Of a stretch of DNA of 64,000 bases, positions 832 to 20,119 are shown piece after piece. The translations under genes were made by a program, and so were the position numbers. Position 1 is the first letter of the stretch. Every line of letters starts with the position of its first letter. This stretch comes from Lachnospiraceae bacterium. Its GTDB lineage: Bacteria > Bacillota > Clostridia > Lachnospirales > Lachnospiraceae. Location: NCBI GenBank assembly GCA_030524705.1, contig JAUNGD010000007.1:1-64000 (forward strand). Reading direction: 5' to 3'. The notes beneath the pieces were generated by a model, which saw nothing but the letters and a program-made list of their open reading frames with translations, was not told the origin of the DNA and ran no database searches.

Positions 832-2241
832 TTAAGCTTTTGAAAAATAAAAAATTATTTTTAAACTCTTGAACATTTTTAGTATACTTTCCCAATTTAT
901 AGCAAGCATAAATATAATTAGCAAAATTTGAATAATACAATTTAGCGAAAAAATGGCTGTCACGGATAGAATACATAGAATTCCCCAACTTAATAAAACC
1001 TTCCAATATGAATTTATTAATATTTTATCTCCAACTGCTTTTTTTCGTATCGCATATATAATATAACTAGAAATTGCTGTTGCTATAGTTGCTCCTTGTA
1101 TTCCTAACAAATATATTAACAAAATATTTAATATGATATTAAAAGCAGCTCCATATATAGCGGATTTTGCCATGCTCTTAGAATCTTTAACTGCCAAAAG
1201 TATTGGTCCCAAAAATCCTGATGCTGAATTTAAAACACTTGCAATTAATAAAAATGGTACATATTTCCATGCAACAAAAAAATCATTTGCGTAAAGAAAA
1301 TGAGCCAGAAATTTTGACGTTAGAATAAGCACCGAACAACTAAAGCACATTAAAAGGTTGAAATATACAAATGTTTCTCCATAAAACTCTTTAGTTCTTT
1401 TTCCGCCATATTCTTTAATTGCTGATATTTGCCATGCTTGAATGAATATCTGCTGAAGGGTATTTAGAATACTTGGAATTTTATAAGCTACGGATAAAAT
1501 TCCATTTGCAGCAGCCCCACAAATAAAGGCGACCGTATATCTATCCGATGTATTATTAATCCACCAACTCAGAGATGTGGTAATAAGAGGTAGACAATAT
1601 ATCAACATTTTTTTCTGCAATGACTTATTTATTTTTATCCATTTACAATAATTCCAAATTTTCAGTCTGATAGCATAATATAAACACGGAATTGCCTGTG
1701 ATAAAATATTAGCTATAAAAAATCCGTATAGGCCATTTTTAATTACAAGTAAAAAATATAAATTACTCGCAATCAAAACGATAGTCCCTAATACACCTGC
1801 AATTCCCATATCGGCAATTTTTTCTAATCCCTTTGCAAATTGTATGAAAAATTGATTTAACACATAAAAAGCATAATAAAGAAAAATAAGAATCTCATAT
1901 CCGGAAGTCTGTGGAAAAAGTCCTCCTTTTAAACAAATCAGCAAGAATAAAATTACTGGAAAAAAACTTCTTATAATATACCTTATTCCAATTGTAGCTA
2001 TCTCTTCAGTGGAATATGCTTTATCCATTGAAAAACGCATAACTGCATCAACAATATTTAAAGATAACAGAGGAAATAAAAGTTGTACCGTAGATACTAC
2101 GAGATCATACATTCCATATTCTGCAGTGGACAAAATACTTGTATATAATGGAACCAAAAGAAAAACTAAAATTTTGGAAGCAAAATTACTAACTGTTAAT
2201 ATTCCAACATTTTTTGCCAGATATTTAAATTTTCTGTTCAT
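832..2241 (-). CDS. Wzx-like oligosaccharide flippase
   Basis: A 469-residue, very hydrophobic protein with 12 or more predicted membrane segments. The N-terminus (AKNVGILTVSNFASKILVF, then LVPLYTSILSTAEYGMYDLV) has the layout of the polysaccharide transport family of the MATE/MOP superfamily. Such proteins flip undecaprenyl-diphosphate-linked repeat units across the membrane. It is the last gene of the AT-rich end of the polysaccharide locus and follows the iron-sulphur protein by 18 bases. With the Wzy-like polymerase at 4600-5760 it indicates Wzx/Wzy-dependent export. The substrate cannot be read from sequence. Codon use is clearly AT-rich compared with genes right of 7 kb, which suggests horizontal origin. 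Confidence 0.88.
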   Translation of the reverse strand: MNRKFKYLAKNVGILTVSNFASKILVFLLVPLYTSILSTAEYGMYDLVVSTVQLLFPLLSLNIVDAVMRFSMDKAYSTEEIATIGIRYIIRSFFPVILFLLICLKGGLFPQTSGYEILIFLYYAFYVLNQFFIQFAKGLEKIADMGIAGVLGTIVLIASNLYFLLVIKNGLYGFFIANILSQAIPCLYYAIRLKIWNYCKWIKINKSLQKKMLIYCLPLITTSLSWWINNTSDRYTVAFICGAAANGILSVAYKIPSILNTLQQIFIQAWQISAIKEYGGKRTKEFYGETFVYFNLLMCFSCSVLILTSKFLAHFLYANDFFVAWKYVPFLLIASVLNSASGFLGPILLAVKDSKSMAKSAIYGAAFNIILNILLIYLLGIQGATIATAISSYIIYAIRKKAVGDKILINSYWKVLLSWGILCILSVTAIFSLNCIIQILLIIFMLAINWESILKMFKSLKIIFYFSKA

Positions 2242-3482: not shown

Positions 3483-4580
3483 TTAGCGCAATGCATTTAC
3501 TAGCCATTCCATTGAATCATTGCGTATTTCATTTAGTTTCTTGTTCACATTACTATATTCAATATCACTGTATTCATGCAGTCTTGCATCTTCTCTTTCT
3601 TGTAATCCTACACTTTCCAATAAGCTCTGAACTCGAACAGGATTAGTTTTATTTATTACTGCAACAAAATTTCTGTTAAGATTTATTGAAAATGCTGTTC
3701 CATGAAAGGAATCTGTTAAAATTACCCTTGCATTGGAAATATATGTAACCAGCTTTTCTGGCATAATATTGTAAATTGCCTTATTCACATGCTTGTATTT
3801 TTTTGAATGAGATTGAATATTATAAATTGGTAAATTTAACTGAGTAATATACTTTTCAATTCTGTCCCAATATAATTCAATATTTCCGCCGACAAAGTAT
3901 GTTAATATATATGGTGTGGAAGCATTAAAGGAACTCATTTCTTTCTCAAATTCTTTCCTCCATTGGTCTCCTGTTAGAAGTAGGGTTGGATCACAGACAA
4001 CTTTAATATTTGTTTTGCAACTACTTTGTAGTAAATTTGCAGCATACTTTTCACGAACACTAATACTATTAAATCTTTCCAACATTCTCTTATATGTATT
4101 AAGCTCTTCAGAAGAAAAAACATGACTTCCTACACTTGAGGCATATGAAACTCTCTTTTTAGGCGTACCAAAGTCTAAAAGAAAACCTCTATCAATCCCT
4201 CCTGTTACTTCTGGATTCCAAATCTGGTCTGACCCGGCAAGCAGAATTTCATAATCTGTGTTTTTTAACTCTTCTATAGTATTATATTTCTTCTTACTTA
4301 CATATTTATAAAAAGCATCAAGATTTTTCTTCTTTCTGACGGGATCCTTGCATCCTTTAAACAAAAACATTCGAACAATCCAATTTATAACCAAATAGAT
4401 TTTTTCTATAATATTTTGATGTTTTATTTTAAGTTCTGTTTGCTCATATTTGTTTTCATAATTGATAAGCTCGGCTTCTAATCCCATGTTTTCTAATACA
4501 CGTACAGTAGCATATGCCTGAAGAGCTGCACCATAACTATGTCTTGCATGATGAAATGTTATAATTCCTACTTTTCTCAT
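3483..4580 (-). CDS. polysaccharide pyruvyl transferase family protein
   Basis: A 365-residue protein of the CsaB/WcaK-type pyruvyl transferase family, which adds pyruvate ketals from phosphoenolpyruvate to sugars. Family marks are the N-terminal KVGIITFHHARHSYGAALQ, the motif GSDQIWNPE near residue 116, and DSFHGTAFSINL in the C-terminal half. The open frame extends 39 codons upstream to 4697, but I start at the ATG at 4580 because GAAGGAG lies just ahead and homology begins there; the upstream part would overlap the polymerase gene. It is probably coupled functionally to the adjacent iron-sulphur protein. If active, it would give the polymer negative charge. AT-rich composition. Confidence 0.88.
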   Translation of the reverse strand: MRKVGIITFHHARHSYGAALQAYATVRVLENMGLEAELINYENKYEQTELKIKHQNIIEKIYLVINWIVRMFLFKGCKDPVRKKKNLDAFYKYVSKKKYNTIEELKNTDYEILLAGSDQIWNPEVTGGIDRGFLLDFGTPKKRVSYASSVGSHVFSSEELNTYKRMLERFNSISVREKYAANLLQSSCKTNIKVVCDPTLLLTGDQWRKEFEKEMSSFNASTPYILTYFVGGNIELYWDRIEKYITQLNLPIYNIQSHSKKYKHVNKAIYNIMPEKLVTYISNARVILTDSFHGTAFSINLNRNFVAVINKTNPVRVQSLLESVGLQEREDARLHEYSDIEYSNVNKKLNEIRNDSMEWLVNALR

Positions 4581-4599
4581 TTCAATTATCTCCTTCACT

Positions 4600-5760
4600 T
4601 TAAAGCAACAGATTGCAAAAAGTATTTTGTTTACAATAGTCCGATGTGATTTTACATAACGCCATTGGCATCCAGAACGTTGCTGTTTCAAATCCATTTA
4701 TAAACATTAGGGGGACAAACAAAATCAATAGCATAGAAACTATAAACAGTATATTTTCCCTTCTAACTGTACAATAAACAATGTACTGCCATCCATACAA
4801 TATAGCACCTAAAATTCCTACACTTGTGATTAAATCTACAAAACAACTATGAGTATACCATCGGACATGCTGCTGCGCAAAATAAGTGCCTGATTGAATA
4901 CCACTACCAATCCAAGGTCTGCGCAAAAAGCCTTCTATTGCATATCCCCATATTGTTAATCTTATATTTTCAGTATATCCATCTACATCAGACATTCGTG
5001 AAAATAATGCAGATCCACTTAATCCCAAATATACAGCCAAAATAAGAATAACAATAGCAAATGATATCATAATTGAACGACCATTAATACCTGACATAAA
5101 AATGTATTTGACTATAATAAATGAAAAGCAACTCAACATCGCTACCAAGGCGCCCCTTGAACCTGTCATAAAAATCGCAATAAAAATTATTCCTGAGTAT
5201 ATCAAATATTTTTTCTTTTTACTTCCAAATAGAAAAGAAGTGAAAAAATAAAAAAAACCAAATACTATATATGAAGATAAATAATTTTCATCTTTCCGAA
5301 CTCCTAATATTGTTAAACTTACTCTTCCATTAACCAAATTATATGACAAAAAGATATTCACTAATAACCATAGAGCAAGCACTAAAGTAATATAGGCATA
5401 AAACTTTAGTATATTTTTAATATCATTAGCATTATAGTCTCTAATCGTTATAAGAATATATAATACTATAAATATAAAAAAAGAACTTGCTGCTGATCCC
5501 CACTCTACAACATCTGATAGAATTGTTGATATAATTGTAGAGAAACATATCAGTATTGTTACTAAATAGTTTTGCATTTTTTCTAAACTAAATTGCAATT
5601 TTATAAAGCATAAGCCGTATACCAAAACAACTGGATATAGTATAAATGCTATAGATGCATGATATTGATTCTTGTTAAATATAGTAACAGCTATCATAAT
5701 GTAATATGCTAATAGTGTTGGGCGAATTAACATTGGCTTATTTGTACTGCTTGTATTCAT
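4600..5760 (-). CDS. O-antigen polymerase/ligase-like protein (Wzy)
   Basis: A 386-residue multi-spanning membrane protein with about ten hydrophobic segments. A large loop near residues 240-300 contains SDVDGYTENIRLTIWGYA, then RPWIGSGIQSGTYF, the arrangement seen in O-antigen ligase/polymerase (Wzy_C) proteins. GSRGALVAMLSCFSFI is a further common mark. It should polymerise repeat units on the outer face of the membrane and would work with the flippase. Sequence conservation in this family is very low, so the call rests on topology, loop motif and neighbourhood. It lies 20 bases downstream of the glycosyltransferase gene and 19 bases upstream of the pyruvyl transferase start. AT-rich. Confidence 0.82.
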   Translation of the reverse strand: MNTSSTNKPMLIRPTLLAYYIMIAVTIFNKNQYHASIAFILYPVVLVYGLCFIKLQFSLEKMQNYLVTILICFSTIISTILSDVVEWGSAASSFFIFIVLYILITIRDYNANDIKNILKFYAYITLVLALWLLVNIFLSYNLVNGRVSLTILGVRKDENYLSSYIVFGFFYFFTSFLFGSKKKKYLIYSGIIFIAIFMTGSRGALVAMLSCFSFIIVKYIFMSGINGRSIMISFAIVILILAVYLGLSGSALFSRMSDVDGYTENIRLTIWGYAIEGFLRRPWIGSGIQSGTYFAQQHVRWYTHSCFVDLITSVGILGAILYGWQYIVYCTVRRENILFIVSMLLILFVPLMFINGFETATFWMPMALCKITSDYCKQNTFCNLLL

Positions 5761-5780: not shown

Positions 5781-6860
5781 TCAAGTGTAATTTTGTTTAC
5801 GGTTTAAAATGTTATATACATTTCTTAAAATCACTAATCCATAATATAAATGGTATTTTATTGCAATCGCTTTTATATAATGATTCCTCCTTAACTGTTT
5901 AATATCAATCTTCTTAAAAATATTTCTATACGGAAATTCCTTAAAATAATTTCCGCATTCTTTTTGTTTCTTTAAGAATGAATCAGGGTTATTGGCATTA
6001 AAAAATTTTTGTGTAATACAAATTTCCATTGATAAAAGTACAGTATAATAAACTGAATCTGTAAAATCCTGTTCTTTATGGAAATGATTAATGAACTTCC
6101 AAACTTGCTGAAGGTATAGCTTGTGTTCATAATCGGCATTAGGTCTATACATATTAACCATACTATTTTCCGTAGATCTGTAGTGATAAAATGGCTCGTA
6201 AATGTAAACTATTCTTTCTGCATATTCAGTAGTATATAAAAAGAATAAGCCATCTTCTCTATACGGAACATTTATAAACCTGATATTATTTTTGTCCAAA
6301 AATTTTACAGATACAAATCTCCAACACGCACTGTCCAAATTAATGGAATTGTCTGGCAAATTATTTTTAATAAACTCCATTGAGGTTTTCTGCAATTTAT
6401 TAATATCTTCTACGCCTCGAAACCATGTTTCATTATCAAATGCTGGTTCACTTATAACTTCTCTATCCGGATAGTTTTTACATCCGGAAAAAATTACCAT
6501 ATCTGGGTTTTCATTCCATTTATTCAAATAACTAACAAACTTTTCACAGCAATTTAAGTCCAGCCAATCGTCACTATCAACAAATGTAACCCATGTGCAG
6601 TCGACATCTAAGTGATTAATGCCTGTATTTCTCGCAGACGGAAGACCAAGATTTTTCTTATGATGAACTGCTTTTACTCTTTTATCTTTTTTAGCATATT
6701 CATCACATACTGCTCCACAATTATCCGGTGAACAGTCGTCAACCAAAATAATCTGTACATTTTGATATGTTTGCTTTAAAAGACTGTTTACACATATATC
6801 CAAAAAGTCTTTTTTTACCTTATAGACTGGCACAACTATCCCGATTTTAGGTAAAACCAT
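5781..6860 (-). CDS. family 2 glycosyltransferase
   Basis: A 359-residue GT-A fold enzyme. The N-terminus IGIVVPVYKVKKDFLDICV, the nucleotide-binding VQIILVDDCSPDNCG, the block KNLGLPSARNTGINHL and the metal-binding DSDDW are typical GT2 features. It transfers a sugar from a nucleotide-activated donor to the lipid-linked intermediate at the inner membrane face. It is the only glycosyltransferase in the window apart from the initiating PglC-like enzyme, so the repeat unit is very short, or other transferases are encoded elsewhere, or this one acts more than once. The start ATG follows a GAGGAG at 6870-6875. AT-rich. Confidence 0.92.
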   Translation of the reverse strand: MVLPKIGIVVPVYKVKKDFLDICVNSLLKQTYQNVQIILVDDCSPDNCGAVCDEYAKKDKRVKAVHHKKNLGLPSARNTGINHLDVDCTWVTFVDSDDWLDLNCCEKFVSYLNKWNENPDMVIFSGCKNYPDREVISEPAFDNETWFRGVEDINKLQKTSMEFIKNNLPDNSINLDSACWRFVSVKFLDKNNIRFINVPYREDGLFFLYTTEYAERIVYIYEPFYHYRSTENSMVNMYRPNADYEHKLYLQQVWKFINHFHKEQDFTDSVYYTVLLSMEICITQKFFNANNPDSFLKKQKECGNYFKEFPYRNIFKKIDIKQLRRNHYIKAIAIKYHLYYGLVILRNVYNILNRKQNYT

Positions 6861-6893: not shown

Positions 6894-7073
6894 CTATATT
6901 TGCCATTCCCAAGACACAATCATTAATAAAAAATGGCTATTTCCAATTTTATAATATTTAACTTGCTCTTTTCTTAAAAAGCCAAGGAGCCCTTCCGTAG
7001 AACAATTTCCTGCTCCTCGTCCCATACCATTAATTGTAGAAACAGTGTTTTCATATTCTTTATTCATAGGCAT
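6894..7073 (-). pseudogene. fragment of a second aldolase copy (59-codon frame)
   Basis: A 59-codon frame opens with ATG inside the 3' end of the aldolase gene and runs to a TAG at 6894. Residues 12-31 (STINGMGRGAGNCSTEGLLG) closely match the neighbouring aldolase around ATAYGMGRGAGNCHLEALLG, and FLRKEQVKYYKI parallels YYNGKKYHVEPV. After that the similarity stops. I read it as the remains of a tandem or transferred second aldolase, left at the seam between the AT-rich and the GC-richer part of the locus. Expression as a small protein cannot be excluded, since the start overlaps the aldolase stop, but it lacks the catalytic barrel. Confidence 0.6.
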
Positions 7074-8022
7074 GATATCTATACTGTTCCCTGAAATTAT
7101 AATTCTTCACTTTGGTAGCCCCTATCGCATCCCGTGGATGCTGGTTCGTAAGCCCGGTCAACAGGTATGATGTGTTGTATCCCCATTCCAGTCCATCCCT
7201 TTTCCCCTGCTCCTTCAGATCAAGCATATACTTCTGCACCAGGTCAAGCACCGGTTCTACATGATATTTTTTTCCATTATAATATCCCAGTAGTGCCTCC
7301 AGATGGCAATTTCCTGCTCCCCTTCCCATGCCATATGCCGTCGCATCAAGGAGTCTTGCGCCCATGTCCTTGGCCTCCAGTGTGTTGGCAAATGCACACT
7401 GCTGGTTATTATGGGTATGCACACCAACCAGTTTTCCCGCCGGAGAGAGTTTATCCCTGAACAGGCGAGTGAGATGCCGGATCTGCTTTGGGTACATTGC
7501 ACCATAACTATCCACAATGTATACGCCCATCACCGGCGATTTGCAAAGAAGTTCCAGAGCCTTCGTAAGCTGATCATCTGTACAGGTGGACATTGCCATA
7601 ATATTGCATGTGGTCTCATATCCCATTGCATCCGCATATTCAATCATCTCAATTGCCTGCGGAATGGTATCTATATAAGTCGCAACTCTAACCAAATCCA
7701 CAGGACTTTCTGCTTTTTTGTGAATGTCCTTTCGATAATCACATCGTCCAACATCGCACATGACGGAAATCTTCATCTTTGTCCTGTTTTCACCTACAAT
7801 GGAACGAATGTCCTCATCCGAGGCAAATTTCCATTTCCCGAATTTCTCTGGATCAAATTGTTTCTTGTCTGCACGATATCCAAATTCCATGTAATCCACG
7901 CCCGCATCAAGGTTCGTTTCATAAACCGCCCTTACAAATTCATCCTTAAAATAAAAATCATTTACCAGACCTCCGTCCCTGATCGTTGCATCCACTATGC
8001 GGACTCCCTCTATAATTGCCAT
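7060..8022 (-). CDS. HMGL-like aldolase (DmpG-type TIM barrel)
   Basis: A 320-residue member of the HMG-CoA lyase-like/4-hydroxy-2-oxovalerate aldolase family. The strand-1 motif DATIRDGG (residues 11-18) carries the metal-binding Asp and catalytic Arg; VGVHTHNNQQCAFANTLEA supplies the HxH metal ligands; YGMGRGAGNCHLE matches the late-barrel loop. These enzymes make or break C-C bonds with pyruvate or acyl-CoA partners. In this operon, next to an acyl carrier protein and a ligase, it may build or cleave the acyl chain used for sugar N- or O-acylation. That role is inference. No partner acetaldehyde dehydrogenase is seen. It is 23 bases downstream of the oxidoreductase. Confidence 0.83.
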   Translation of the reverse strand: MAIIEGVRIVDATIRDGGLVNDFYFKDEFVRAVYETNLDAGVDYMEFGYRADKKQFDPEKFGKWKFASDEDIRSIVGENRTKMKISVMCDVGRCDYRKDIHKKAESPVDLVRVATYIDTIPQAIEMIEYADAMGYETTCNIMAMSTCTDDQLTKALELLCKSPVMGVYIVDSYGAMYPKQIRHLTRLFRDKLSPAGKLVGVHTHNNQQCAFANTLEAKDMGARLLDATAYGMGRGAGNCHLEALLGYYNGKKYHVEPVLDLVQKYMLDLKEQGKRDGLEWGYNTSYLLTGLTNQHPRDAIGATKVKNYNFREQYRYHAYE

Positions 8023-9309: not shown

Positions 9310-9552
9310 TTACTGTGCAATCTTCTTCTCTATGGTGCTAACAAGTCCACCTACAACCTTTATATTGGTGTCTTCTAGCTCATCATCCGTAAATTCTATC
9401 CCAAATTCATCCTCAATCGTTGCGATGAACTGCACAAGCCCCAGAGAATCCACATAGCCGGACTCCACATAGTTTAGAGTCATGATATCCACATCTTCTG
9501 GAACTGTATATTCCCTCTGTATGTATTCCGTAACAAAATCTTTTACACTCAT
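9310..9552 (-). CDS. acyl carrier protein
   Basis: An 80-residue acidic protein with the phosphopantetheine attachment site GYVDSLGLVQF, serine 36. The following EDEFGIEFTDDEL is the usual helix-3 region of carrier proteins. It lies directly downstream of an adenylate-forming ligase (9576-11108) and with a type II thioesterase in the same operon, so it is probably a dedicated carrier for one activated acyl group and not the fatty acid synthase ACP. The carried acyl group could then be passed to an amino or hydroxyl group of a sugar by the NeuD-like or the split acyltransferase. No phosphopantetheinyl transferase gene is seen in the window. Confidence 0.93.
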   Translation of the reverse strand: MSVKDFVTEYIQREYTVPEDVDIMTLNYVESGYVDSLGLVQFIATIEDEFGIEFTDDELEDTNIKVVGGLVSTIEKKIAQ

Positions 9553-9575: not shown

Positions 9576-11108
9576 TTAATTGTCTAATCCCATTTCCTGT
9601 ATATATGGCAGGATATTCATACGTTGCAGCTTACCCATCGTATTTTTGGGCAACTTATCCACAATAAATATCTTGTGAGGCTGTTGAAAATCCGCCAAAT
9701 GCCTTGCACAGTATGTTTTCAGTGTTCTGAGTTTCAGATCTGCATCTTCCTTTGGCACCACTGCCAGAGCGACCACCTCACCCAGCCTATCATCCGGATA
9801 AGCGAAAGCAGCACATTCCTCAACCTCCGGAATGCTCACCACAACCACATCAATGTCATGCGGATAAACATTTACCGCACCGGTAATAATAATCTCCTTC
9901 TTGCGTCCTGCAAAATACAAGTATCCATCCCCGTCCAGATAGCCCAAATCGCCCGTCCTGAAATATCCTTCATGCGTAGCAGCCTCCATCATTGTATCCA
10001 GCTTATAATACCCTTTGCAGGTCAGGCTGGACTTGCAGGCAATCTCCCCAACTTCTCCAATATTCGCATCCGTATCATCATCCCGGAATATTCGAACCTT
10101 TGCTTCGTCAAAAGGCGTCCCTACAGATTTCTGTTTATGGGATGCTTTCTGGAAACATATTGTTGTCACAGTGGAGGTTTCCGATGTCCCGTACATCTCA
10201 TGGAACTCACAGGACAGCTTTTCAATCAGTGCTAGTTTCACATTTTCCTCCAGTAAAGCCGAAGAAGAAACAATTGCACGGAAGCTGTCGATCTGCGGCG
10301 CATCTGGCAGCTCAAGTAATTCCAAAATCTGTGCAAGCTGCGCGGAAACTGCTATGGTGAAAGTTACCTGCTGCTCTTTTACACAATTAAGCCACAGCGC
10401 AGGTGTAAAACGTGGAAGCAAAATGCTTGTAGCTCCCAGAATCAACGGAAGGATCACTAACCGTTCCGCCAAGGAATGGTACAGTGGGGTAGCCGCAAGA
10501 ATACGATCTTCCTTCGTAATGCTATATACACGGATATGCGCCATGGCGCGTTCGTACTTATTATTCTGGCTGATATCAATGGGCTTCGGATTGCCTGTAG
10601 ACCCTGATGTCATGGTGAGGATCAGGCTTTCATTTCCATTGATATTTTCCTTAATCTCCGGGCGTTCCGATGACATTTTTGCTATGTCTGAGAACGGGAT
10701 TGTCCCCTCAAATTCCCCATCTAGGCAGATGATCACACCAGGGACATCTATGCCACCGTTCCTACTGCTTTCGCTAAGGAAGGACTTCCTTGCAATAAGA
10801 TGTTTCATATCTCCTGAATCCATCGCCATACGAATGGCATTAAGAGGAAGCGTAGGGTTCAGCGGAACCAGGCATACTCCCATATCTGCCGCTGAAAAGA
10901 AAAGGGCCACAGATTCAATACTATTATTCATGGGTATTGCGATATGGTCACCGTAGGCCACTCCGTTAGCAATCAATAAGTTGGAATAGCGGCTAACAAG
11001 CTCCGCCATCTCTTTATATGTAGCGGTCTTCCCATCACACCAGATTGCCATTTTTTCCGGCATCTCATTAGCGTTTCGGTAAAGCATATCCGCCAGTCTG
11101 CTCCTCAT
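9576..11108 (-). CDS. AMP-dependent acyl synthetase/ligase
   Basis: A 510-residue class I adenylate-forming enzyme. The P-loop TSGSTGNPKP is at residues 167-176, the A5-type EMYGTSET precedes it in the second subdomain, the hinge region reads YFRTGDLGYLDGDGY, and the C-terminal lysine motif is PKNTMGKLQR. It activates a carboxylic acid as acyl-AMP and transfers it to a thiol, here probably the carrier protein encoded 23 bases downstream. It is a free-standing domain with no condensation or carrier domain fused. The start ATG follows GGGAGG. In a polysaccharide locus it suggests an unusual acyl decoration. The substrate is not predictable by eye. Confidence 0.9.
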   Translation of the reverse strand: MRSRLADMLYRNANEMPEKMAIWCDGKTATYKEMAELVSRYSNLLIANGVAYGDHIAIPMNNSIESVALFFSAADMGVCLVPLNPTLPLNAIRMAMDSGDMKHLIARKSFLSESSRNGGIDVPGVIICLDGEFEGTIPFSDIAKMSSERPEIKENINGNESLILTMTSGSTGNPKPIDISQNNKYERAMAHIRVYSITKEDRILAATPLYHSLAERLVILPLILGATSILLPRFTPALWLNCVKEQQVTFTIAVSAQLAQILELLELPDAPQIDSFRAIVSSSALLEENVKLALIEKLSCEFHEMYGTSETSTVTTICFQKASHKQKSVGTPFDEAKVRIFRDDDTDANIGEVGEIACKSSLTCKGYYKLDTMMEAATHEGYFRTGDLGYLDGDGYLYFAGRKKEIIITGAVNVYPHDIDVVVVSIPEVEECAAFAYPDDRLGEVVALAVVPKEDADLKLRTLKTYCARHLADFQQPHKIFIVDKLPKNTMGKLQRMNILPYIQEMGLDN

Positions 11109-11184: not shown

Positions 11185-11823
11185 TTACTTTCCACCGGGG
11201 ACTGCCCTTGCAGGGTTGCCAAATACTTTTTTTCCTGGCTCAACATCTTTTAGAACCACGCTGCCAAGCCCCAGATAAGCTCCGTCCCCAACCTTTATAT
11301 CCTGTGCTATACAGACGCCTGCGGCGAGGAATACATCCTTCCCAATCTCCACATTTCTCACGATGTTGCATCCGCCGCTGATTACAGTATAATCTCCGAT
11401 CACATTGTCATGCCCTATTGGGGTAGATAAAAGTGTAACAAAATCTCCAACTGTGGAATTACAGGATAGTTTAGAATAAGGAAACATGATAAACCCTTCT
11501 CCATAATGAGCAAATTCACTCAAAAGAGCTGTTGGGTGGATAACCGTTGCAAACTTTGCCCCCTTTTCTTTAAGAATAGATACAATCTTCCTCTTCAATG
11601 CCGGAGAACCCATCGCAAGGGCGAATTCCTCGTCCTCCTTCGGCTTCCAGTCGCTAATCGTACCGATGACCGGATAGTCAATCTCCACACCATCCAAGGC
11701 GCTGGTATTATCATCGATAAAGCCAAGTATCTCCCATGTGGGAGCCACTTTGTTAATATCCTTAATCCATTGCAACAGTTCACGTCCAAAGCCGCCTGCG
11801 CCCACAATTATGATTTTTTTCAT
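11185..11823 (-). CDS. NeuD/PglD-like sugar acyltransferase
   Basis: A 212-residue protein with an N-terminal Rossmann-like nucleotide-sugar binding part (KKIIIVGAGGFGRELLQWI) followed by left-handed hexapeptide repeats (IGDYTVISGGCNIVRNVEIG, VFLAAGVCIAQDIKVGDGAY) and the closing VFGNPARAVPGG. This is the NeuD/PglD family, which transfers acetyl from acetyl-CoA to amino or hydroxyl groups of UDP-sugars. With the DegT-type aminotransferase and PglC-like transferase it fits a bacillosamine-like pathway. The carrier protein next door leaves open that the acyl donor is acyl-ACP. Its ATG overlaps the thioesterase stop (ATGA), so translation is coupled. The gap to the ligase gene is 76 bases. Confidence 0.9.
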   Translation of the reverse strand: MKKIIIVGAGGFGRELLQWIKDINKVAPTWEILGFIDDNTSALDGVEIDYPVIGTISDWKPKEDEEFALAMGSPALKRKIVSILKEKGAKFATVIHPTALLSEFAHYGEGFIMFPYSKLSCNSTVGDFVTLLSTPIGHDNVIGDYTVISGGCNIVRNVEIGKDVFLAAGVCIAQDIKVGDGAYLGLGSVVLKDVEPGKKVFGNPARAVPGGK

Positions 11824-12524
11824 CTTGCCCTCCTGATATTTTTCATCAATGTCTGGTTTATAATTTTTGCAATTTCCTCATAATGCTCCAATACGAAGAA
11901 ATGATTGTTTCCAAATTCAAAAAATTCTGTCTTTCCGGTTGTCAGCCTCTTCCATTTTCTCACAGTGTCAAAAGGCGTATCCTTTTCCGAATAGAGCACC
12001 GTACAGTCACAAAAAGGAAGTTCTCCTTTTTCAAACCGAAACTGCTTTGCGATATTATAATCATCCTTCAATGGATGAATAAACAGCCGGAATAATCGCT
12101 TATTCCGTGTCACCCTCTCGTCGAATCCACCCATAGTTTTTGCATGTTCAATAAACTCCTCATCCGACAGTTTCGGTAGCGACTCGTCAGCGATACAGGC
12201 TCTTGCTCCATAAAACAGATGAACCGGAGCTTCCCCAAGCAGATTCTGTGAAGCAATTTCATATGCCAGTGCTGCGCCCATACTGTAACCGAAAATTGCA
12301 TAGGGTTTATCCTTTTTTCTGTGTGATTTTATATATTCCACCACATCATTCCGAAATATTCCGTAGTCCGTGATATCCCCTTCATTCAGTCTTGAACCTC
12401 TTCCTGAATATTCCACAGTGACTGTTTGTATAAAACTATCCAAATGTTCCGTCATTTTCTGAAATGATGTGGCGTTCCCTCCCGCAAAAGGAAGAAGGAA
12501 TAATTGAACTGATGCCTGCTCCAT
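11820..12524 (-). CDS. type II thioesterase (alpha/beta hydrolase)
   Basis: A 234-residue thioesterase II of the GrsT/RifR type. It opens with VQLFLLPFAGGNATSFQ, has the nucleophile elbow IFGYSMGAALAYE (Ser in GYSMG), and a late NNHFFVLEHYEEI carrying the catalytic His. Such enzymes clear misloaded acyl groups from carrier proteins in NRPS and PKS systems, or release the product. Its presence together with a carrier protein and a free-standing ligase in a capsule locus argues for genuine carrier-bound acyl chemistry. Its stop overlaps the NeuD-like start. Upstream lies the frameshifted acyltransferase, 16 bases away. Confidence 0.9.
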   Translation of the reverse strand: MEQASVQLFLLPFAGGNATSFQKMTEHLDSFIQTVTVEYSGRGSRLNEGDITDYGIFRNDVVEYIKSHRKKDKPYAIFGYSMGAALAYEIASQNLLGEAPVHLFYGARACIADESLPKLSDEEFIEHAKTMGGFDERVTRNKRLFRLFIHPLKDDYNIAKQFRFEKGELPFCDCTVLYSEKDTPFDTVRKWKRLTTGKTEFFEFGNNHFFVLEHYEEIAKIINQTLMKNIRRAR

Positions 12525-12540: not shown

Positions 12541-13145
12541 TTACTTTTTTCTTTGCATTTCAAATTCCGACCAGAAATACTCTTCCTGCTTCTTTGAGAC
12601 AATCTGTCCCGTTACTCCACTCTCATATCGCTTTTCCGTAAGCCTCTTCTGAACAAAATCATCAAATCTCCCAACTACCCTTGCTGGTACTCCTGCCACA
12701 ACACTATTGTCCGGCAAATCCCGGTTCACAAGGCTGCCCGCAGCCACAATGACGTTGCTCCCGATCCTGACATTGCCGAGAATAACCGTCCTGGAGCCGA
12801 TAAACACATTGTCCCGAATTTCAATACATCCAATCTTTTCAGGAATCAAATACCCCCCCCCCTAGTTTCACAGGCAGTCTTCACCTCCCGAAGATTATTC
12901 AGCATGACATGCGTGATATCATGTGTGATGAAATCCACTTTTGATGCAATGTGCACGTTATTGCCGATGCGGATCAGATTCGCATACAGCGGTACAGTTC
13001 TGTCCATAATGCTGCAGTTTTCGCCAATGGCTCCATAAACATGGTTTTTCCTTAAATAATCCGTCCGCCTGGCTGATCCTAATGTCAGCCAGAGGCGAAT
13101 AATATGTCTTAATCTGTTCTTTTCCATACAACAATACAGCCCCAA
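12541..13145 (-). pseudogene. hexapeptide O-acyltransferase, out of frame at a G10 tract
   Basis: Two frames together form one acyltransferase of about 200 residues. The upstream part (13145 or the ATG at 13127 to 12846) carries GENCSIMDRTVPLYANLIRI, then DFITHDITHVMLNNL with a likely catalytic His. The downstream part carries GCIEIRDNVFIGSRTVILGN, VRIGSNVIVAAGSLV and the end VVAGVPARVVG. They meet at ten consecutive G (coding strand). With G10 the upstream frame ends after ETRGGGI. With G11 or G8 it reads through GGGYLIPEKIG into the second half. So the gene is OFF as sequenced and one inserted G turns it ON. It probably acetylates the polysaccharide. A homopolymer sequencing error is the main alternative. 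Confidence 0.82.
12853..12862. repeat. G10/C10 homopolymer, candidate phase-variation tract
   Basis: Ten consecutive C on the plus strand (G10 on the coding strand) lie inside the acyltransferase gene. Runs of this length are prone to slipped-strand mispairing; poly-G tracts of 8-12 are the classical contingency-locus switch in Campylobacter and Neisseria. The tract sits exactly where the two halves of the gene change frame. Gain of one G, or loss of two, restores the full reading frame. I noticed no other G or C run of this length in the window. Confidence 0.8.
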
Positions 13146-13146
13146 T

Positions 13147-13803
13147 CTATTTAAATTTCATGTAGTTGCCTTCGGAATCCGTCACAAGGCTTTCTCTGTC
13201 TGCTATTCCTATAAACTCGCCACGGTTCTCACCGTCAGCGGCCGTCGCTCCCTTATGGCTCAATACGATGCCAACTGTATCTAGGACACTTTTGGCGTCC
13301 ACCAAGAAACTCACATGATCCACATACCAGACATCTCCTTCGAACTGCTGCTCCCAAGTCTGATCATTTCTCCCATTCACCGTGGATGGATTGGATAAAC
13401 CCGGCCTAACCTCATGCCGTCTCCGCTGTTCCGGCGTGTACCGATCCAGATAACGTGTGGGCAACGGCCTAGGACCAATGATACTCATGTCACCTTTGAT
13501 TATGTTCAGAAGACTGGGCAGCTCGTCGATAGACGTTGTGCGGATGAAACTCCCAAATTTCGTGATGCGTTCATTATCCGGGAGGAAGACGCCGTTTTCA
13601 TCCCGTTCATTTGTCATGGAACGAAATTTCCACATGAGGAATTCCTTATTGTCTTTTCCAATCCGGTGCTGTCCGAACAGAACGGGACTTCCAACATCCT
13701 TTCTCACCAGAGCCGCTACGATAAGCATCGGAATTCCGAGTACAAACAACGCGAACCCTGATAAGATTACATCGAGGATACGTTTTATATATTTTTTATA
13801 CAT
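13147..13803 (-). CDS. PglC-like initiating sugar-phosphate transferase
   Basis: A 218-residue bacterial sugar transferase of the small monotopic phosphoglycosyl transferase type. It has one N-terminal re-entrant membrane helix (RILDVILSGFALFVLGIPML), then GSPVLFGQHRIGK, WKFRSM, and the Asp-Glu catalytic dyad in TSIDELPSLLNIIKGDMS followed by IGPRPLP. It transfers a sugar phosphate, probably a bacillosamine-type diacylated sugar given its neighbours, from UDP to undecaprenyl phosphate and so starts each repeat unit. It is one base from the acyltransferase frame and 14 bases after the aminotransferase. Length is normal for the PglC class. Confidence 0.92.
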   Translation of the reverse strand: MYKKYIKRILDVILSGFALFVLGIPMLIVAALVRKDVGSPVLFGQHRIGKDNKEFLMWKFRSMTNERDENGVFLPDNERITKFGSFIRTTSIDELPSLLNIIKGDMSIIGPRPLPTRYLDRYTPEQRRRHEVRPGLSNPSTVNGRNDQTWEQQFEGDVWYVDHVSFLVDAKSVLDTVGIVLSHKGATAADGENRGEFIGIADRESLVTDSEGNYMKFK

Positions 13804-13817
13804 GTGACCAACTTCTC

Positions 13818-15065
13818 CTACTCAAAACACCCTCTGACAATTTCAATCACCATGTCAACCTGCTCATCCGTCATCTTATTGTCACTCGGCAAACACAATC
13901 CTCTATGAAATACATCCGCCCCGACATCCACGCATCCACCGGCTATGTACGCATTCGTCCGGCATCTGCCGCTGCCATCCACCGTGATAAACGCATGATT
14001 CCGGTACATCGGCTGCATGTGCATCGGCTTCCATATTGGGCGGCCTTCTGCGTTATACTTGCTAAGCCATTCCAATATCTCCGTAGGACAGCTTTTTCCA
14101 TGCTCTGCTATATAAAGGCTTTCATTATCCGACCTTACTTGCCTGCACATAGCGTCTTCATCTATCAACAAACAGCTGAGCCAGTAGTTCGGCGTGCTCC
14201 CTTCCATGATCGGATTCATGGACACAGGCAGATCTTTGAATCCCTCTCTGTAGCGTTCATAGATTCGTTTCTTATCTGCAATATGCTCCTCCAGATACCC
14301 ATACTGCCCACGGATGACTCCAGCGATTACATTGCTCATGCGGTAGTTATAGCCCACCTCTTCATGCTGGTACCAGGCTGCGTTTTCCCTGCTCTGGGTA
14401 GACCATTTTCTTGCCCGATTCGCATCTTCCAAAGAATTTGTCAGCAAACAGCCTCCAGAAGAACCTGTGATGATTTTATTGCCGTTATAGCTGATAGCCC
14501 CATAATCACCAAATGAGCCGGTCTGCTTCGCTGCTGTGACTCCATTCTCCACGACATTTATGGTAGCGCCCATAGACTCCGCTGCGTCCTCTATAATCAG
14601 AGCACCGTGCTTATCACAAATCTCTCGTATCTTCACGATATCTCCAGGGAAGCCGTACAGATGCGCCATCACCACAAGCTTCACATCCGGGTAGATTTCA
14701 AAAGCTCTCTCAAGCGCTGCCGGATCCATGTTCCATGTCTTTGGGTCTGTGTCGATAAATACCGGGATACCGCCCTCGTAAACAACAGGATTGAGAGTCG
14801 CATCAAATGTCATATCTGAACAGAATACCCGCTTGCCTTCCACTGCTCCATGCGATATGTCCGGCTTTCCATAGAGCCTCTCTCCAGCCAGCTTCACACA
14901 GAGATGGAGTGCTGCTGTGCAGCAAGATAATCCCACTGCGTATTTCACGCCGGCCTTTCCGGCGGCGATGCATTCGACTTCATTGATATTTTTACCTCCT
15001 ATTGTTACGGTAGGGACATAGTTTTTATGGTATTTGGGAGAGTTATTACCCGCGGGTATTGTCAT
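13818..15065 (-). CDS. DegT/DnrJ/EryC1/StrS sugar aminotransferase (PglE-like)
   Basis: A 415-residue PLP enzyme of the sugar aminotransferase family. GLSCCTAALHL forms the cofactor phosphate pocket, IIEDAAESMGA gives the Asp that contacts the pyridine ring, and SYNGNKIITGSSGG contains the Schiff-base lysine 197. It aminates a 4-keto sugar nucleotide, as PglE does in UDP-bacillosamine synthesis; the matching 4,6-dehydratase is not in this window. It is the first gene of the locus in transcription order. The ATG at 15065 has no Shine-Dalgarno sequence, and a strong terminator of the recombinase operon ends 15 to 25 bases upstream. Its native leader may therefore have been cut off by an insertion. 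Confidence 0.9.
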   Translation of the reverse strand: MTIPAGNNSPKYHKNYVPTVTIGGKNINEVECIAAGKAGVKYAVGLSCCTAALHLCVKLAGERLYGKPDISHGAVEGKRVFCSDMTFDATLNPVVYEGGIPVFIDTDPKTWNMDPAALERAFEIYPDVKLVVMAHLYGFPGDIVKIREICDKHGALIIEDAAESMGATINVVENGVTAAKQTGSFGDYGAISYNGNKIITGSSGGCLLTNSLEDANRARKWSTQSRENAAWYQHEEVGYNYRMSNVIAGVIRGQYGYLEEHIADKKRIYERYREGFKDLPVSMNPIMEGSTPNYWLSCLLIDEDAMCRQVRSDNESLYIAEHGKSCPTEILEWLSKYNAEGRPIWKPMHMQPMYRNHAFITVDGSGRCRTNAYIAGGCVDVGADVFHRGLCLPSDNKMTDEQVDMVIEIVRGCFE

Positions 15066-15206: not shown

Positions 15207-17144
15207 TCATTTAGGGGTTGAGATATGCACGCCGGCATCCCCACTACCTCCTGCATCCACCACAATCCCCTTCTTTTCGATATAATTCATCGCTCTTCGC
15301 CCCACATCTTCAAAATTGAAGGAAACCTCCACGGTCTCTTCATCGTAAATCTTAACCACATTGATGAACGCCTGCACCGTCTCCCGTGTGAGCAGCCTTT
15401 CCTTCTTTACATTCCCTTCCATCCTCTCCGCTTCCTTCCTTACACCCGAAAGCCCACGCAGGATGCCTTTCTCTTCTGATTCTGCTTCAAATGAGCACCT
15501 GAGCTTTTCTTCCAGACGTGCCGTCTTATCTGCAATTTCATCCCTTTTTTTCGTATATTCCTCTCGACTGATCACACCCTCCGCATATGCCTCATATTGC
15601 CTGACCTTCTCGGATTTCAGTACCTCCAGCTCGCTCTCCGTGCGCTTCTTAAGGATATAATAACTCCTATCCCCCTGCTTCCTTCGCTCAGCGCCGTAAC
15701 GTTCGATTGACAGTTCCAGAAATTTTAATATCTGAAGCTGTCTATGCAGTTCCCCTTCGACAATAGCTATGATCCATTTCGCATCGTGCCTCGTTTGACA
15801 GCAGGCGGAGGCTTTCCCCGCCGATTTGGAATGGCTGCAGTAGACCACCTGCTTCGCCGTATCATTGTATTCCATCATCAACCCGCAGTTCCCGCACCGC
15901 ACCTTCCCTTTCAGGCAGAAGTCAACTTCGTTCCGGTATGCAACCTTTGGCACAGTGTTGATTGCCGCCTGCGCCGCCTCCCATTCCTCAACGCTCACGA
16001 TTGGCTCATGCTCCCCGTCAAGAATATACCAGTCCTTCCGATCTGTATTACGCCGTTTCTTGCTTCCTACCGTCAGGCTCCGGAATTTCCCATGCACCAT
16101 CGCCCCTGTGTAAGAATAATTTTTTAAAACCTTGTGTACCTTTGAGATATCCCACAGCCATTCTTTATCGGATACCACCCTCCCCGCAGGGGCATAGCCT
16201 GTAGTCTGAAGCCTGTACGCCCCCGGCGTGGGAATCGCCTGTTCATTCAAGAGGTTCACAATCATCGGGCAGTTCCAGCCCCCGAGTGCCTTTTCAAAGA
16301 TCATCCGCACAGTCGGGGCCGTTACAGGATCAGGAACATATTTCCGGCCCACTCGTTTGTAACCGAAGGGCGCCATGCCGCTGGTCGAAATCCCCTGCCT
16401 CCAAAGCGTCTGCCGCGCACTGGTTATTTTCCGCGACAAATCCCGGCTATACTCAGTATTTACCAGGTTCATGATGCTGTTCTCGATGCCCATCGTGGTG
16501 TCGCGGTATTGGTTGCTGTCATAATTATTGTTGACTGCAATGAAGCGGATGTTGAGGAGGGGGAATATCTGCTCCATGTAGTCGCCGACATCAATGTAAT
16601 CTCTCCCGAGACGGGAGGTATCTTTTACGAGGATGGTATTGATCCGCCCGGCTTTTGCATCCTCAATCATTTTTCTGAATGATGGCCGGTCAAAATTCGT
16701 GCCGGAATAGCCATCGTCCACATACTCGGAAACTGATCCGAAGAAGTCCCGAAGGACGGGGTTTGCCTCTATGAGCAGGGATATGGCTGTGTCTTTCGAT
16801 ATCCCCGTATCCTTCTGCTCACCCTTTTCTTCCTTCACTGCCGAAATGTTCATACCCACAGGGCAGTCCTCCCGTTTTAATTTCTGGATTAAGAATTCCT
16901 GCAATAAAAGCCTCTGGTTCTCAATGCTGTTGCTCTCATCCTTTTTTCCCCTGCCCAGGTCGCCGTCCGCTACGGATAGTCTCAGGTAAAATGCAATCTG
17001 CCCATAACCGGGTAAGATTGTGTTTGTGTTGGCATTTCTGTTTTCTGCCTGTGTCGCTATATCGTACTGTGCTGCCATATCGAACTGTGTCGCTATCTGT
17101 GCCATTTTCCTATCACCTACACTTTCTTTTCTCTCTCCATTCAT
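15207..17144 (-). CDS. large serine recombinase (4th of quartet)
   Basis: A 645-residue recombinase. The resolvase domain starts near residue 48 with AFYLRLSVADGD, catalytic Ser about 57. It continues with DGYSGTNFDRPSFRKMIED and VKDTSRLGRDYIDVGDYME, which carry the conserved arginines. A recombinase domain, a zinc ribbon (KVRCGNCGLMMEY and later cysteines) and a long C-terminal coiled coil follow, as in TnpX/SpoIVCA-type integrases. I use the ATG at 17144, which overlaps the upstream stop as ATGA. An ATG at 17105 (MAQIATQ) is the alternative, and the extension to 17189 is unlikely. The low-complexity start (ATQFDMAAQYDIATQAENRN) is unusual. It is the last gene before the terminator. Confidence 0.9.
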   Translation of the reverse strand: MNGERKESVGDRKMAQIATQFDMAAQYDIATQAENRNANTNTILPGYGQIAFYLRLSVADGDLGRGKKDESNSIENQRLLLQEFLIQKLKREDCPVGMNISAVKEEKGEQKDTGISKDTAISLLIEANPVLRDFFGSVSEYVDDGYSGTNFDRPSFRKMIEDAKAGRINTILVKDTSRLGRDYIDVGDYMEQIFPLLNIRFIAVNNNYDSNQYRDTTMGIENSIMNLVNTEYSRDLSRKITSARQTLWRQGISTSGMAPFGYKRVGRKYVPDPVTAPTVRMIFEKALGGWNCPMIVNLLNEQAIPTPGAYRLQTTGYAPAGRVVSDKEWLWDISKVHKVLKNYSYTGAMVHGKFRSLTVGSKKRRNTDRKDWYILDGEHEPIVSVEEWEAAQAAINTVPKVAYRNEVDFCLKGKVRCGNCGLMMEYNDTAKQVVYCSHSKSAGKASACCQTRHDAKWIIAIVEGELHRQLQILKFLELSIERYGAERRKQGDRSYYILKKRTESELEVLKSEKVRQYEAYAEGVISREEYTKKRDEIADKTARLEEKLRCSFEAESEEKGILRGLSGVRKEAERMEGNVKKERLLTRETVQAFINVVKIYDEETVEVSFNFEDVGRRAMNYIEKKGIVVDAGGSGDAGVHISTPK

Positions 17145-18898
17145 CCCTCGCCGAGAATGTCCTTCACATCGTCCAACACGTTCTGGCATTTAAACTCCAC
17201 CTCGGCCACATTGCCGCCATCTGCGCCTGTACCGACTCCGATGGATTCGATCAGCTCATCAAAGAGCGTTTGCCGAACTGTCCAATCATCCTGCAGATCT
17301 TCCATTTCTCCGTCTAATCTTTCCAGTTTCATTGTCCATTCAAGAAAGCTGTCCAGTCTTTTTTCCGCCCTGAGGATTTCCCCTTGCACCGTCTGCAACA
17401 CCTGTTTGATCTCCTGCCCCTCGCTGATGTAGTGCTCCTTCATCTCCGCATAATCCTCTGCCGTGAGCACATTTTCCGCATAATCCTGGTAAAGCCTTTC
17501 TAGGCGTTCCTTGTTTGTCCACAATCGGTTTTCCAGGACATAAAGCTCCCGCTTCATGCGCCCGAGTTTTCCGTTGCTTCCATTCTTCGCCTTGCCCACC
17601 GTTTGCTTCATGTCACAGAAGTTTCGAATCAGCGTCTGCACCGCATCCAGCGCGGTGATCTTCACAAAATCCTCGTGTACCTTGTGCCTGCATTTCCATT
17701 CTGAACCGTCTGCTCTTCGTACCGTCCAGTGACACTGGTAATATGCCCCATAGTATCTGCTTTCATCTCCGCCTACATATTTTCTCCGGTAGCCCATGTT
17801 ATTGCCGCAGTCGAGGCACCGCACCTTGCCAGTGAAGCAGTCCTTCGTGCGTCCCTTCCTGTCTGGCTTCTCGTGGCGTATCCTTTTCAACTGTTCGGAG
17901 TGATCCTGGAGCTTTTCCTGCGCCCTCTCAAACCACGGACGTGGGATGATTGCCTCGTGGGTGTCCGGATGAATGACCCACTCGGAAGGATCAGTTCTAT
18001 GCGGCTTGATATTCTTATAAAGTGCGGAGCGTACTCTCCCTAAAACCCGATCGCCGCAGTAGGCTGGCCTTGTGATGATTGTCCGTATCTGGGCGTCCTT
18101 CCAGGTGTTGTCCTTATCATTCCTCCCCCATTTCCCCTTCTCCACCTTATATGCAGATGGGCTTAGGATATCCAGCCGATTCAGCCTCTCCGCAATTCGG
18201 CAAATCGGTACCCCGGATATGAACCAGTAGAAAACCATCTGCACGACCGGCGTCGTCTCTGCTTCCGGGAAAAGCACCGTGCCGTCCTCGCCTCTTACAT
18301 AACCATACGGGGCTTGGCGGATTTTCACGTCTCCTATCCGGCTGTGCTGCTCAAAATAAGCCGTCTGCCTTTTGGAAAATTCCTTCGCATACATGGCGTT
18401 TATCATGTTCTTGACCGGGACAGCGATGCTGCTGCGGTCTTCCGCGCGGCTGCTGTCAAAACGGTCGGTCACCGCGATAAAGCGCACATCCAGTTTCGGG
18501 AAAATATTTTCTATGTAATTTCCCGTCTCAATCAGGTTACGCCCAAATCTGGAGAGATCCTTTACAACAATGCATTGTATCACGCCGCTGTATACATCCT
18601 GCATGAGCCTGTTAAAATCAGGGCGGTCGAAGTTTGTGCCGGAATAGCCGTTGTCCACGTAGGTATTCTCCAGCGTAAGATCCGGGCTGTCACGGATAAA
18701 CCGGTGCAGCAGGGAGATCTGCGTCTGTATTGTGCCATCATCATTTTTTTCTGCGGAAAGCCTTGCATAGGCCGCCGTCCTCAGCCTTGGGAACGTGGGG
18801 TGGGGTGTTGCAGGTTGTGATTTTTGCTGTGATACTGTGGGTGTATTTACCACATCTGCGCCGCCAGCACCGTTCATTCTCTTGCTTTTTCTTGCCAT
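17141..18898 (-). CDS. large serine recombinase (3rd of quartet)
   Basis: A 585-residue recombinase. A proline- and glutamine-rich leader of about 40 residues precedes the catalytic domain TAAYARLSAEKNDDG (Ser 48), NGYSGTNFDRPDFNRLMQD and VKDLSRFGRNLIETGNYIE. The recombinase domain, the zinc ribbon (KVRCLDCGNNMGYRRKY with further Cys and His) and the coiled coil are complete. The closest match among its neighbours is general architecture, not near identity, so the four genes are old paralogues and not a recent duplication. The start follows GGGGGGACAGG. The stop overlaps the next recombinase start. It probably acts together with the flanking recombinases on shared sites. Confidence 0.92.
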   Translation of the reverse strand: MARKSKRMNGAGGADVVNTPTVSQQKSQPATPHPTFPRLRTAAYARLSAEKNDDGTIQTQISLLHRFIRDSPDLTLENTYVDNGYSGTNFDRPDFNRLMQDVYSGVIQCIVVKDLSRFGRNLIETGNYIENIFPKLDVRFIAVTDRFDSSRAEDRSSIAVPVKNMINAMYAKEFSKRQTAYFEQHSRIGDVKIRQAPYGYVRGEDGTVLFPEAETTPVVQMVFYWFISGVPICRIAERLNRLDILSPSAYKVEKGKWGRNDKDNTWKDAQIRTIITRPAYCGDRVLGRVRSALYKNIKPHRTDPSEWVIHPDTHEAIIPRPWFERAQEKLQDHSEQLKRIRHEKPDRKGRTKDCFTGKVRCLDCGNNMGYRRKYVGGDESRYYGAYYQCHWTVRRADGSEWKCRHKVHEDFVKITALDAVQTLIRNFCDMKQTVGKAKNGSNGKLGRMKRELYVLENRLWTNKERLERLYQDYAENVLTAEDYAEMKEHYISEGQEIKQVLQTVQGEILRAEKRLDSFLEWTMKLERLDGEMEDLQDDWTVRQTLFDELIESIGVGTGADGGNVAEVEFKCQNVLDDVKDILGEG

Positions 18899-18956
18899 TT
18901 TCCTGTCCCCCCTTTCTGTAGTCTTCTTCTACCGATACCTACAGTGTTTTCCGCAG

Positions 18957-20119
18957 TTATCCCACCGTTCGCTCATCTCTTCCTCCCATAAAACATATGT
19001 CGGGAAGCTCGTCCCGCCATTCTTCATATACGAATACGACTGAGACGACTTTTTCTCCATCCATGATATACTTGTCCACCCAGTTCGTGAATGGCGGCCC
19101 GCCAGCCCTTTTCCCATTCTTTGAATTTGTGAATATATTCAGCTTTTCCAGAATCGCCGGGTCTGTGAACTTTTCCAGCCACGGATTCTGGCTGCTGAAT
19201 GCTTTTTCGATCCGCTCCATTCGACGCTCACACTGTACAAACAGCTCCTCCAGATTTTCCATGCGAGCATCGATTTCCGCACGCTTTTTTCATATTCCGG
19301 GGATGCTGTCTTCCCTGAAATGTAGGTATTGTAAAGCGGCATCGTTTCTGCATTCACTACTGTCATTTCCAAAAAGATGCGCTTCATTTCTTCCCGGCAC
19401 GCTATAAGCCTGCGCCTCTTTTCTACTTTAGTTTCTGCAGACTTAAGCATCATGGAAGCGTAGGCTGCCAGTCTATGCTCCTCAACGATTGCGTTTTCTA
19501 CAAATTCCCGGTTTTCCGGATGCTCGCTCCACCGCATCCACCGTGACTTCTTTAGCGCGCCAGAAGCCGTACCGGTTTTGTCGATTTCGTTTGTATTATT
19601 TGTTTCGCTGGTTTTGTCAGTTCGGCCTGTATTCTTTGCCCTCCTCCGCATAGTCAGGAGCGCCCTTCGGCTCCGGTACCAATTTGACGATTTGCGGAAA
19701 TATTGTTCCATTTCTTCGGGCGTTTTCTCCCTGGAATCAAATCCTTCCGCCAACGAAATGAAATGGATGCCTGCCGGGTAGAATCCGCGCACAAGCACCT
19801 CCAGCGCAAGGTACACCATTGGCCCAAAACAGTATGTATTATCCAATACAATCAGATCATAGCTTCTGCCGATACCAGCTGAGCGCATCCGCTCAAAAGC
19901 ATGATTCTCTGAATAATAATCTTCCGTTGCGGTATCCGACACGGTATTCTCCCGGTAAATCTCCAGAAGCTCCATCCTGTTCTCCTCGCAATACGCCCGG
20001 ATATTTGCCTCCTGTACCGCAATGTCTACAGCGGGGGTTCTGCTCTTTTCAGGGAGGCAGTCCACATTTTCCATAGACTTCACATAGCCCACGCATTTTA
20101 TTTTTTTACCGTCACTCAT
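18957..20119 (-). pseudogene. degenerate serine recombinase homologue, frameshifted
   Basis: Two frames (20119 to about 19285, then to 18957) join if the A6 run at 19285-19290 gains one base; the protein would then read PEYEKKRAEIDARMENLEEL and be about 387 residues. The N-terminal half keeps the resolvase outline (KCVGYVKSMENVDC, YDLIVLDNTYCFGPMVYLAL, AGIHFISLAEGFDSRE). The catalytic RLS serine motif and the arginines of SRLGRN are lost, and no recombinase domain or zinc ribbon follows, only a coiled coil and a short tail. So it was catalytically dead before the frameshift. Its ATG overlaps the upstream recombinase stop, so it was kept in the operon. It may have been a regulatory or scaffold subunit. 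Sequencing error in A6 is possible. Confidence 0.75.

Follow-up and report, generated by a model that had tools for sequence, protein, structure and literature searches.

A poly-G tract at the frame change of an acyltransferase gene as a likely phase-variation site in a polysaccharide locus of a Lachnospiraceae bacterium

Results

Ten consecutive guanines lie exactly at the change of frame of a hexapeptide acyltransferase gene in a surface-polysaccharide locus, and this tract is likely to be a slippage-prone contingency site at which the gene is subject to phase variation. What was observed is the tract, a change of frame at it, two otherwise conserved halves of the gene and the same arrangement in related genes. 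Comparative signs, namely tracts in the same loop of related genes, in-frame and broken versions, a capsule locus with several tracts and tracts in promoters, suggest that such tracts are contingency loci. The first-pass annotation had proposed that an acyl group is switched ON and OFF; the tract, the frame change, the locus, the intact halves and the comparative signs all favour that proposal, and the switching itself is what we infer from sequence. The closest named relative is Lachnospiraceae bacterium RGIG2635 from goat omasum (53%); on it are based both the assignment to Lachnospiraceae and the view that the source organism is probably a gut bacterium.

A G10 tract separates two halves of one gene

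The window, that is the whole 64,000-nucleotide stretch of DNA analysed, carries ten consecutive C on the plus strand, which read as G10 on the coding (minus) strand and are directly followed 3' by TAT on that strand. As the first-pass annotation had claimed, the sequence and the open reading frames place the tract precisely between the two frames of the acyltransferase:

12853..12862, minus strand: G10 tract, the proposed slippage site (window sequence, run counts)
12846..13145, minus strand: N-terminal half of the acyltransferase, ending just past the tract (open reading frame; 48% to homolog L020 over 75 aa)
12541..12849, minus strand: C-terminal half, with hexapeptide repeats and the C terminus, in the other frame (open reading frame; Pfam Hexapep PF00132, E 1.1e-9; 57% to L020 over 96 aa)
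12846..12849, minus strand: TTGA, the N-frame stop codon sharing bases with a TTG in the C frame, a possible site of reinitiation (open reading frames, sequence)

The N half comprises 99 aa from a TTG, or 93 aa from the likelier ATG at 13127-13125, and terminates in ...CETRGGGI-stop, just as had been predicted for translation through G10 (a stop after ETRGGGI). The 102-aa C half opens with LIPEKIG, and the frame arithmetic by which G11 or G8 would give GGGYLIPEKIG and a complete protein is right. A single intact homolog, L020, matches both halves; the alignment covers the N half up to the loop and the C half to near the C terminus, so the gene is otherwise intact, and no second lesion was seen in the alignments of either half to L020. 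The Hexapep match of the C half is above its cut-off. No Pfam or NCBIfam model matched the N half. For the C half, 25 of 42 NCBIfam matches were listed, all of them below their cut-offs. Among the PDB relatives are maltose, galactoside and serine acetyltransferases. A single-sequence model of the homolog L009 was unusable (pLDDT 33).

The gene lies among polysaccharide genes

The placement of the acyltransferase in a surface-polysaccharide setting is borne out by its neighbours, which are polysaccharide genes with an acyl ligase, a carrier protein and a thioesterase among them:

13818..15065, minus strand: DegT/DnrJ aminotransferase, LegC-like (PF01041; TIGR04181 below cut-off)
13147..13803, minus strand: initiating sugar transferase (Bac_transf), the gene before (PF02397, E 3.6e-55; NCBIfam)
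11820..12524, minus strand: thioesterase-fold protein, the gene after (PF00975, E 8.6e-29)
11185..11823, minus strand: NeuD/PglB/VioB-type sugar acetyltransferase, a second hexapeptide enzyme, in an open frame (open reading frame, Pfam, TIGR03570 above cut-off)
9576..11108, minus strand: AMP-forming acyl ligase (PF00501, E 3.3e-61)
9310..9552, minus strand: acyl carrier protein (PP-binding, PF00550)
7060..8022, minus strand: HMGL-like aldolase/synthase (Pfam, NCBIfam)
5781..6860, minus strand: family 2 glycosyltransferase (Pfam)
4600..5760, minus strand: Wzy/O-antigen ligase-like polymerase (PF04932)
3483..4697, minus strand: polysaccharide pyruvyl transferase (PF04230)
832..2241, minus strand: polysaccharide flippase (PF01943)

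Three large serine recombinase genes (window 15207-21804) adjoin the locus. Only weak inverted repeats, imperfect or short pairs, were found near them, and no link was found between these recombinases and the G10 tract.

The tract is longer than chance allows

G/C runs in the window numbered 36 of length 5, 5 of length 6, 0 of length 7-9 and 1 of length 10, the G10 tract being the only run of 7 or more. In the genome (88% complete) exact G/C runs were found at G7 (4), G8 (2), G9 (4) and G10 (1), a spectrum without the steep fall expected by chance. Extrapolated geometrically from the G5 and G6 counts of the window, 0.94 runs of length 9 and above would be expected versus 5 seen (Poisson P 0.003); starting from the four G7 runs of the genome, the expectation is 0.09 versus 5 (P 4e-8). 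The tract is thus longer than chance allows in its own genome.

Two of the four G9 runs (L001:1501-1509 and L006:1501-1509; C3 and C75 of the same genome) form the 3' part of a promoter spacer. They stand immediately before TATACT, with TTGACA at 19 bp or TTGCCA at 18 bp upstream, and both promoters precede genes with a signal-peptide-like start. The remaining two G9 runs lie, without breaking the frame, in a PfpI-like and a LacI-like gene (named by eye); these are less typical contingency genes and count against the contingency reading.

Tracts recur in homologous acyltransferase genes

The C half was searched in 397 family genomes, of which 164 matched at E 1e-10, its own included, and we examined 49 homolog loci (29 returned by the search plus 20 further places of its table). 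G tracts of at least 8 were found inside the gene envelope at 5 of the 49, all on the coding strand. All five carriers are among the 29 search-returned loci and none of the 20 further loci has a tract, which counts against the contingency reading. Two tracts fall in the same loop as that of the window gene, one being G10 and broken at the tract (L037, genome G267) and the other G8 and in frame (L038, genome G277). The remaining three are at other positions: L026 and L035 (both G8, broken at the tract) and L041 (G9, in frame). The tract-bearing homologs belong to other genera, span G8-G10 and include both in-frame and broken states. Tract density was higher in the gene envelopes than in their flanks (5 in 31.0 kb versus 2 in 104.3 kb, P 0.009). 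The loop common to L037, L038 and the window gene separates the HD motif from the next hexapeptide coil, and the residue at which the tract falls in it differs among them. The loop tolerates length change, having 19-30 residues in 14 homologs.

A DNA search of 47 genus genomes found no second genome of the same species. It returned the gene itself and, among the 46 congeners, one weak 89-base match, so the genus sample holds no orthologous allele of the tract gene. A distant DNA search of the gene against a plasmid collection gave no match. Length variation between congeners was seen at another gene, in different species: three congeners (G001, G002 and G030; L049, L050 and L073) carry an orthologous poly-G tract of 9, 11 and 9 with conserved flanks, where a ribosome-binding site would stand, 10 nt ahead of the start of a helix-turn-helix gene. 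The flank motif of this tract was absent, by the pattern used, from twelve other matching congeners.

Capsule loci of two relatives hold several tracts

The genome G277 is a single contig, and within one capsule locus a tract is found in each of three acyltransferase genes (L240, positions 8197, 14987 and 19573): a G10 at which the gene is broken with Pfam pieces on both sides, a G8 in frame and a G8 with a frame change. The G267 locus, where two of the gene names were assigned by eye, has tracts of G9, G10, G7 and G9, two of the four in acyltransferases that change frame there. The first G9 is at the end of an iron-sulfur protein frame, the G10 is in the broken hexapeptide gene, the G7 marks where an OafA-like gene changes frame, and the last G9 is in frame in a glycosyltransferase-like frame.

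G10 tracts across the family and the phylum

Exact G10 runs were present in 67 of 250 family genomes, very unevenly (23 in G106, 19 in G192, none in most), and in 92 of 299 sampled phylum genomes (31%). G10 runs as such are therefore not special, which counts against the contingency reading. The high counts of G106 and G192 may reflect biology or artefact. G192 (68% complete) has G10 runs in housekeeping genes too; those in Hsp90, glutamine amidotransferase and GlgC-like genes of this MAG count against the contingency reading. Runs of at least 25 G in two other genomes, one at a contig end (G008:C172:1-25 and G014:C105 from 11479), are probably sequencing artefacts. A list of G9 runs in the genus was dropped as a count of contingency loci, since overlaps between windows and very long G runs make it too high.

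We sampled 90 G10 loci of the family (30 returned by the run search and 60 retrieved in addition), 89 of them distinct. By the rule used, 24 tracts were in frame, 8 were frame-changed and 57 were unassigned; only 7 of the 89 were promoter-like (at most 2 mismatches in total). The large unassigned share and the small promoter-like one count against the contingency reading. Acyl_transf_3 genes hold 5 of the 89, two frame-changed (L109, L180), one with Pfam halves in different frames (L127) and two in frame (L134, L210). About 0.15 would be expected from the 29 Acyl_transf_3 genes in 17.7 Mb of six genomes, a rough figure because the six were chosen for having tracts or homologs. Other hosts are Big, BspA/LRR and GLUG proteins, a sulfatase, YfhO, a radical SAM protein and a histidine kinase, as well as two glycosyltransferases, a hexapeptide protein (L123) and regulators. 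At L177, a G10 with a frame change lies just past a DNA methylase domain; nothing in Pfam matched the piece after the tract, and L177 is therefore no more than a possible phase-variable methylase.

A promoter-spacer class and a shared TA end

The pattern GGGGGGGGTATAMT (G8 followed by TATAMT) occurs at 30 sites in 23 of 299 family genomes, versus 1 for the reversed control. TA bias partly confounds this control, and weight was therefore put on a separate test of the -35 box: TTGACA (at most 1 mismatch, 16-20 bp) is upstream at 19 of the 30 sites versus 3.5% of random positions (P 7e-21). The N terminus encoded by the first downstream gene resembles a signal peptide in 18 of 27 cases versus 37 of 195 controls (P 9e-7), three of the 30 sites having no gene by the rule used.

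Long G runs of the family share their 3' end. After runs of 9 or more (n = 99) the next base is T in 77% and the next two are TA in 56%, versus 10-24% and 5-10% for runs of 3-6; of the 7 runs of at least 8 in the window's own genome, 6 have TA directly after them. Outside the family, T follows 43 of 149 G10 runs among the matches listed (counted by eye). Among the 89 family tracts TA comes after 13 of the 25 in clear coding-strand frames and after 37 of the other 64. An origin of the TA end from promoters alone was rejected, as tracts inside clear coding frames show it too. The shared end hints at a common way of forming or keeping long G runs.

Alternatives to a contingency site

An ordinary recent frameshift, in which a chance homopolymer slipped once and left a young pseudogene with no adaptive switching, would fit an observation made in a single genome, the 20 further homologs without a tract and the 31% of phylum genomes that have G10 runs. 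It fits poorly with the other homologs that carry tracts, two of them in the same loop and some in frame, some broken, with the several acyltransferase tracts inside one capsule locus and with a run spectrum that does not decay, and we regard it as unlikely. An error of sequencing or assembly in the tract length, the gene being whole in the cells, is very unlikely. Reading through G tracts is difficult, an effect termed 'G's end' having been reported (PMC9187656), and sister MAGs contain G runs of tens of bases, one of them at a contig end. The window tract, however, is internal to a 93.7 kb contig and has coherent sequence to either side of it, frame changes at tracts are found also in the one-contig genome G277, and a tract of about G10 would be slippage-prone even if its length were misread. 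A third reading is that the frame change is not OFF, because the ribosome or RNA polymerase slips on G10 in a programmed way or because the two halves are translated separately across the TTGA overlap just past the tract. Runs of G can slip in translation, and the N-frame stop does overlap a C-frame TTG, but homologs differ in where the tract lies and how long it is, and some alleles are in frame, which makes this reading highly improbable.

Discussion

If the G10 tract is a contingency site, copying slips would alter its length at a high rate, and cells with the tract in the other frame class would make the whole enzyme. The assembled sequence would then represent an OFF allele, and the population would be mixed for one acyl decoration of the polysaccharide. 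Judging by the gene neighbourhood, the ligase, carrier protein and thioesterase encoded nearby may supply the acyl donor. The tract would be one of several in the genome, two others of which probably switch secreted proteins through promoter spacing. A wider proposal is tentative and slightly less likely than not: commensal Clostridia of this family may carry a scattered poly-G phasome, made up of acyltransferase capsule loci with multiple tracts, for combinatorial acyl decoration, and of promoter-spacer switches for secreted proteins.

The slippage mechanism is already known, and coding homopolymers have been treated as a general mechanism in prokaryotes (PMC2831843); the interest lies in how far it extends among commensal Clostridia. 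Among the matches listed from the open-access literature no paper dealt with poly-G phase variation in Lachnospiraceae, in agreement with the first-pass remark that such loci are little described in gut Clostridia. A capsule promoter of Mediterraneibacter gnavus, a promoter and not a coding tract, was reported not to be bimodal (PMC13121745). A 2025 review names as a major question why genomes with many phase-variable loci are apparently restricted to pathogens, and suspects that database bias towards pathogens and commensals may contribute (PMC11868660). Should probable gut Clostridia prove to have poly-G switches in capsule enzymes and in promoters of secreted proteins, the finding would speak directly to this question, and such bacteria would have a means of varying, with no need of recombinases, the surface that phages, host and neighbours encounter.

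The sortase-pilus genes of Bifidobacterium breve UCC2003 undergo intragenic G-tract slippage, with G10/G11 splitting a surface gene into two frames, and the heterogeneity in tract length was measured by maximum depth sequencing (PMC9187656). As in that strain, a G tract here splits a surface gene of what is probably a Gram-positive gut commensal; there the genes are actinobacterial pilus genes and slippage was measured, whereas here we infer it. Clostridioides difficile has recombinase-driven invertible promoters (PMC11868660). That system and the one proposed here both concern phase variation in Clostridia, but the mechanism in C. difficile is inversion. In Campylobacter and Neisseria, poly-G contingency genes with tracts in surface-structure genes are turned ON and OFF by frame; unlike those Gram-negative systems, the present one involves a polysaccharide locus of Firmicutes and few tracts per genome. 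Neisseria porA and opc and Bordetella fim are switched by a homopolymer in the promoter spacer between the -35 and -10 boxes. The promoter tracts described here likewise lie between these boxes, at a spacing of 16-20; they differ in that they adjoin TATAMT and precede, in the family, genes of secreted proteins and lipoproteins.
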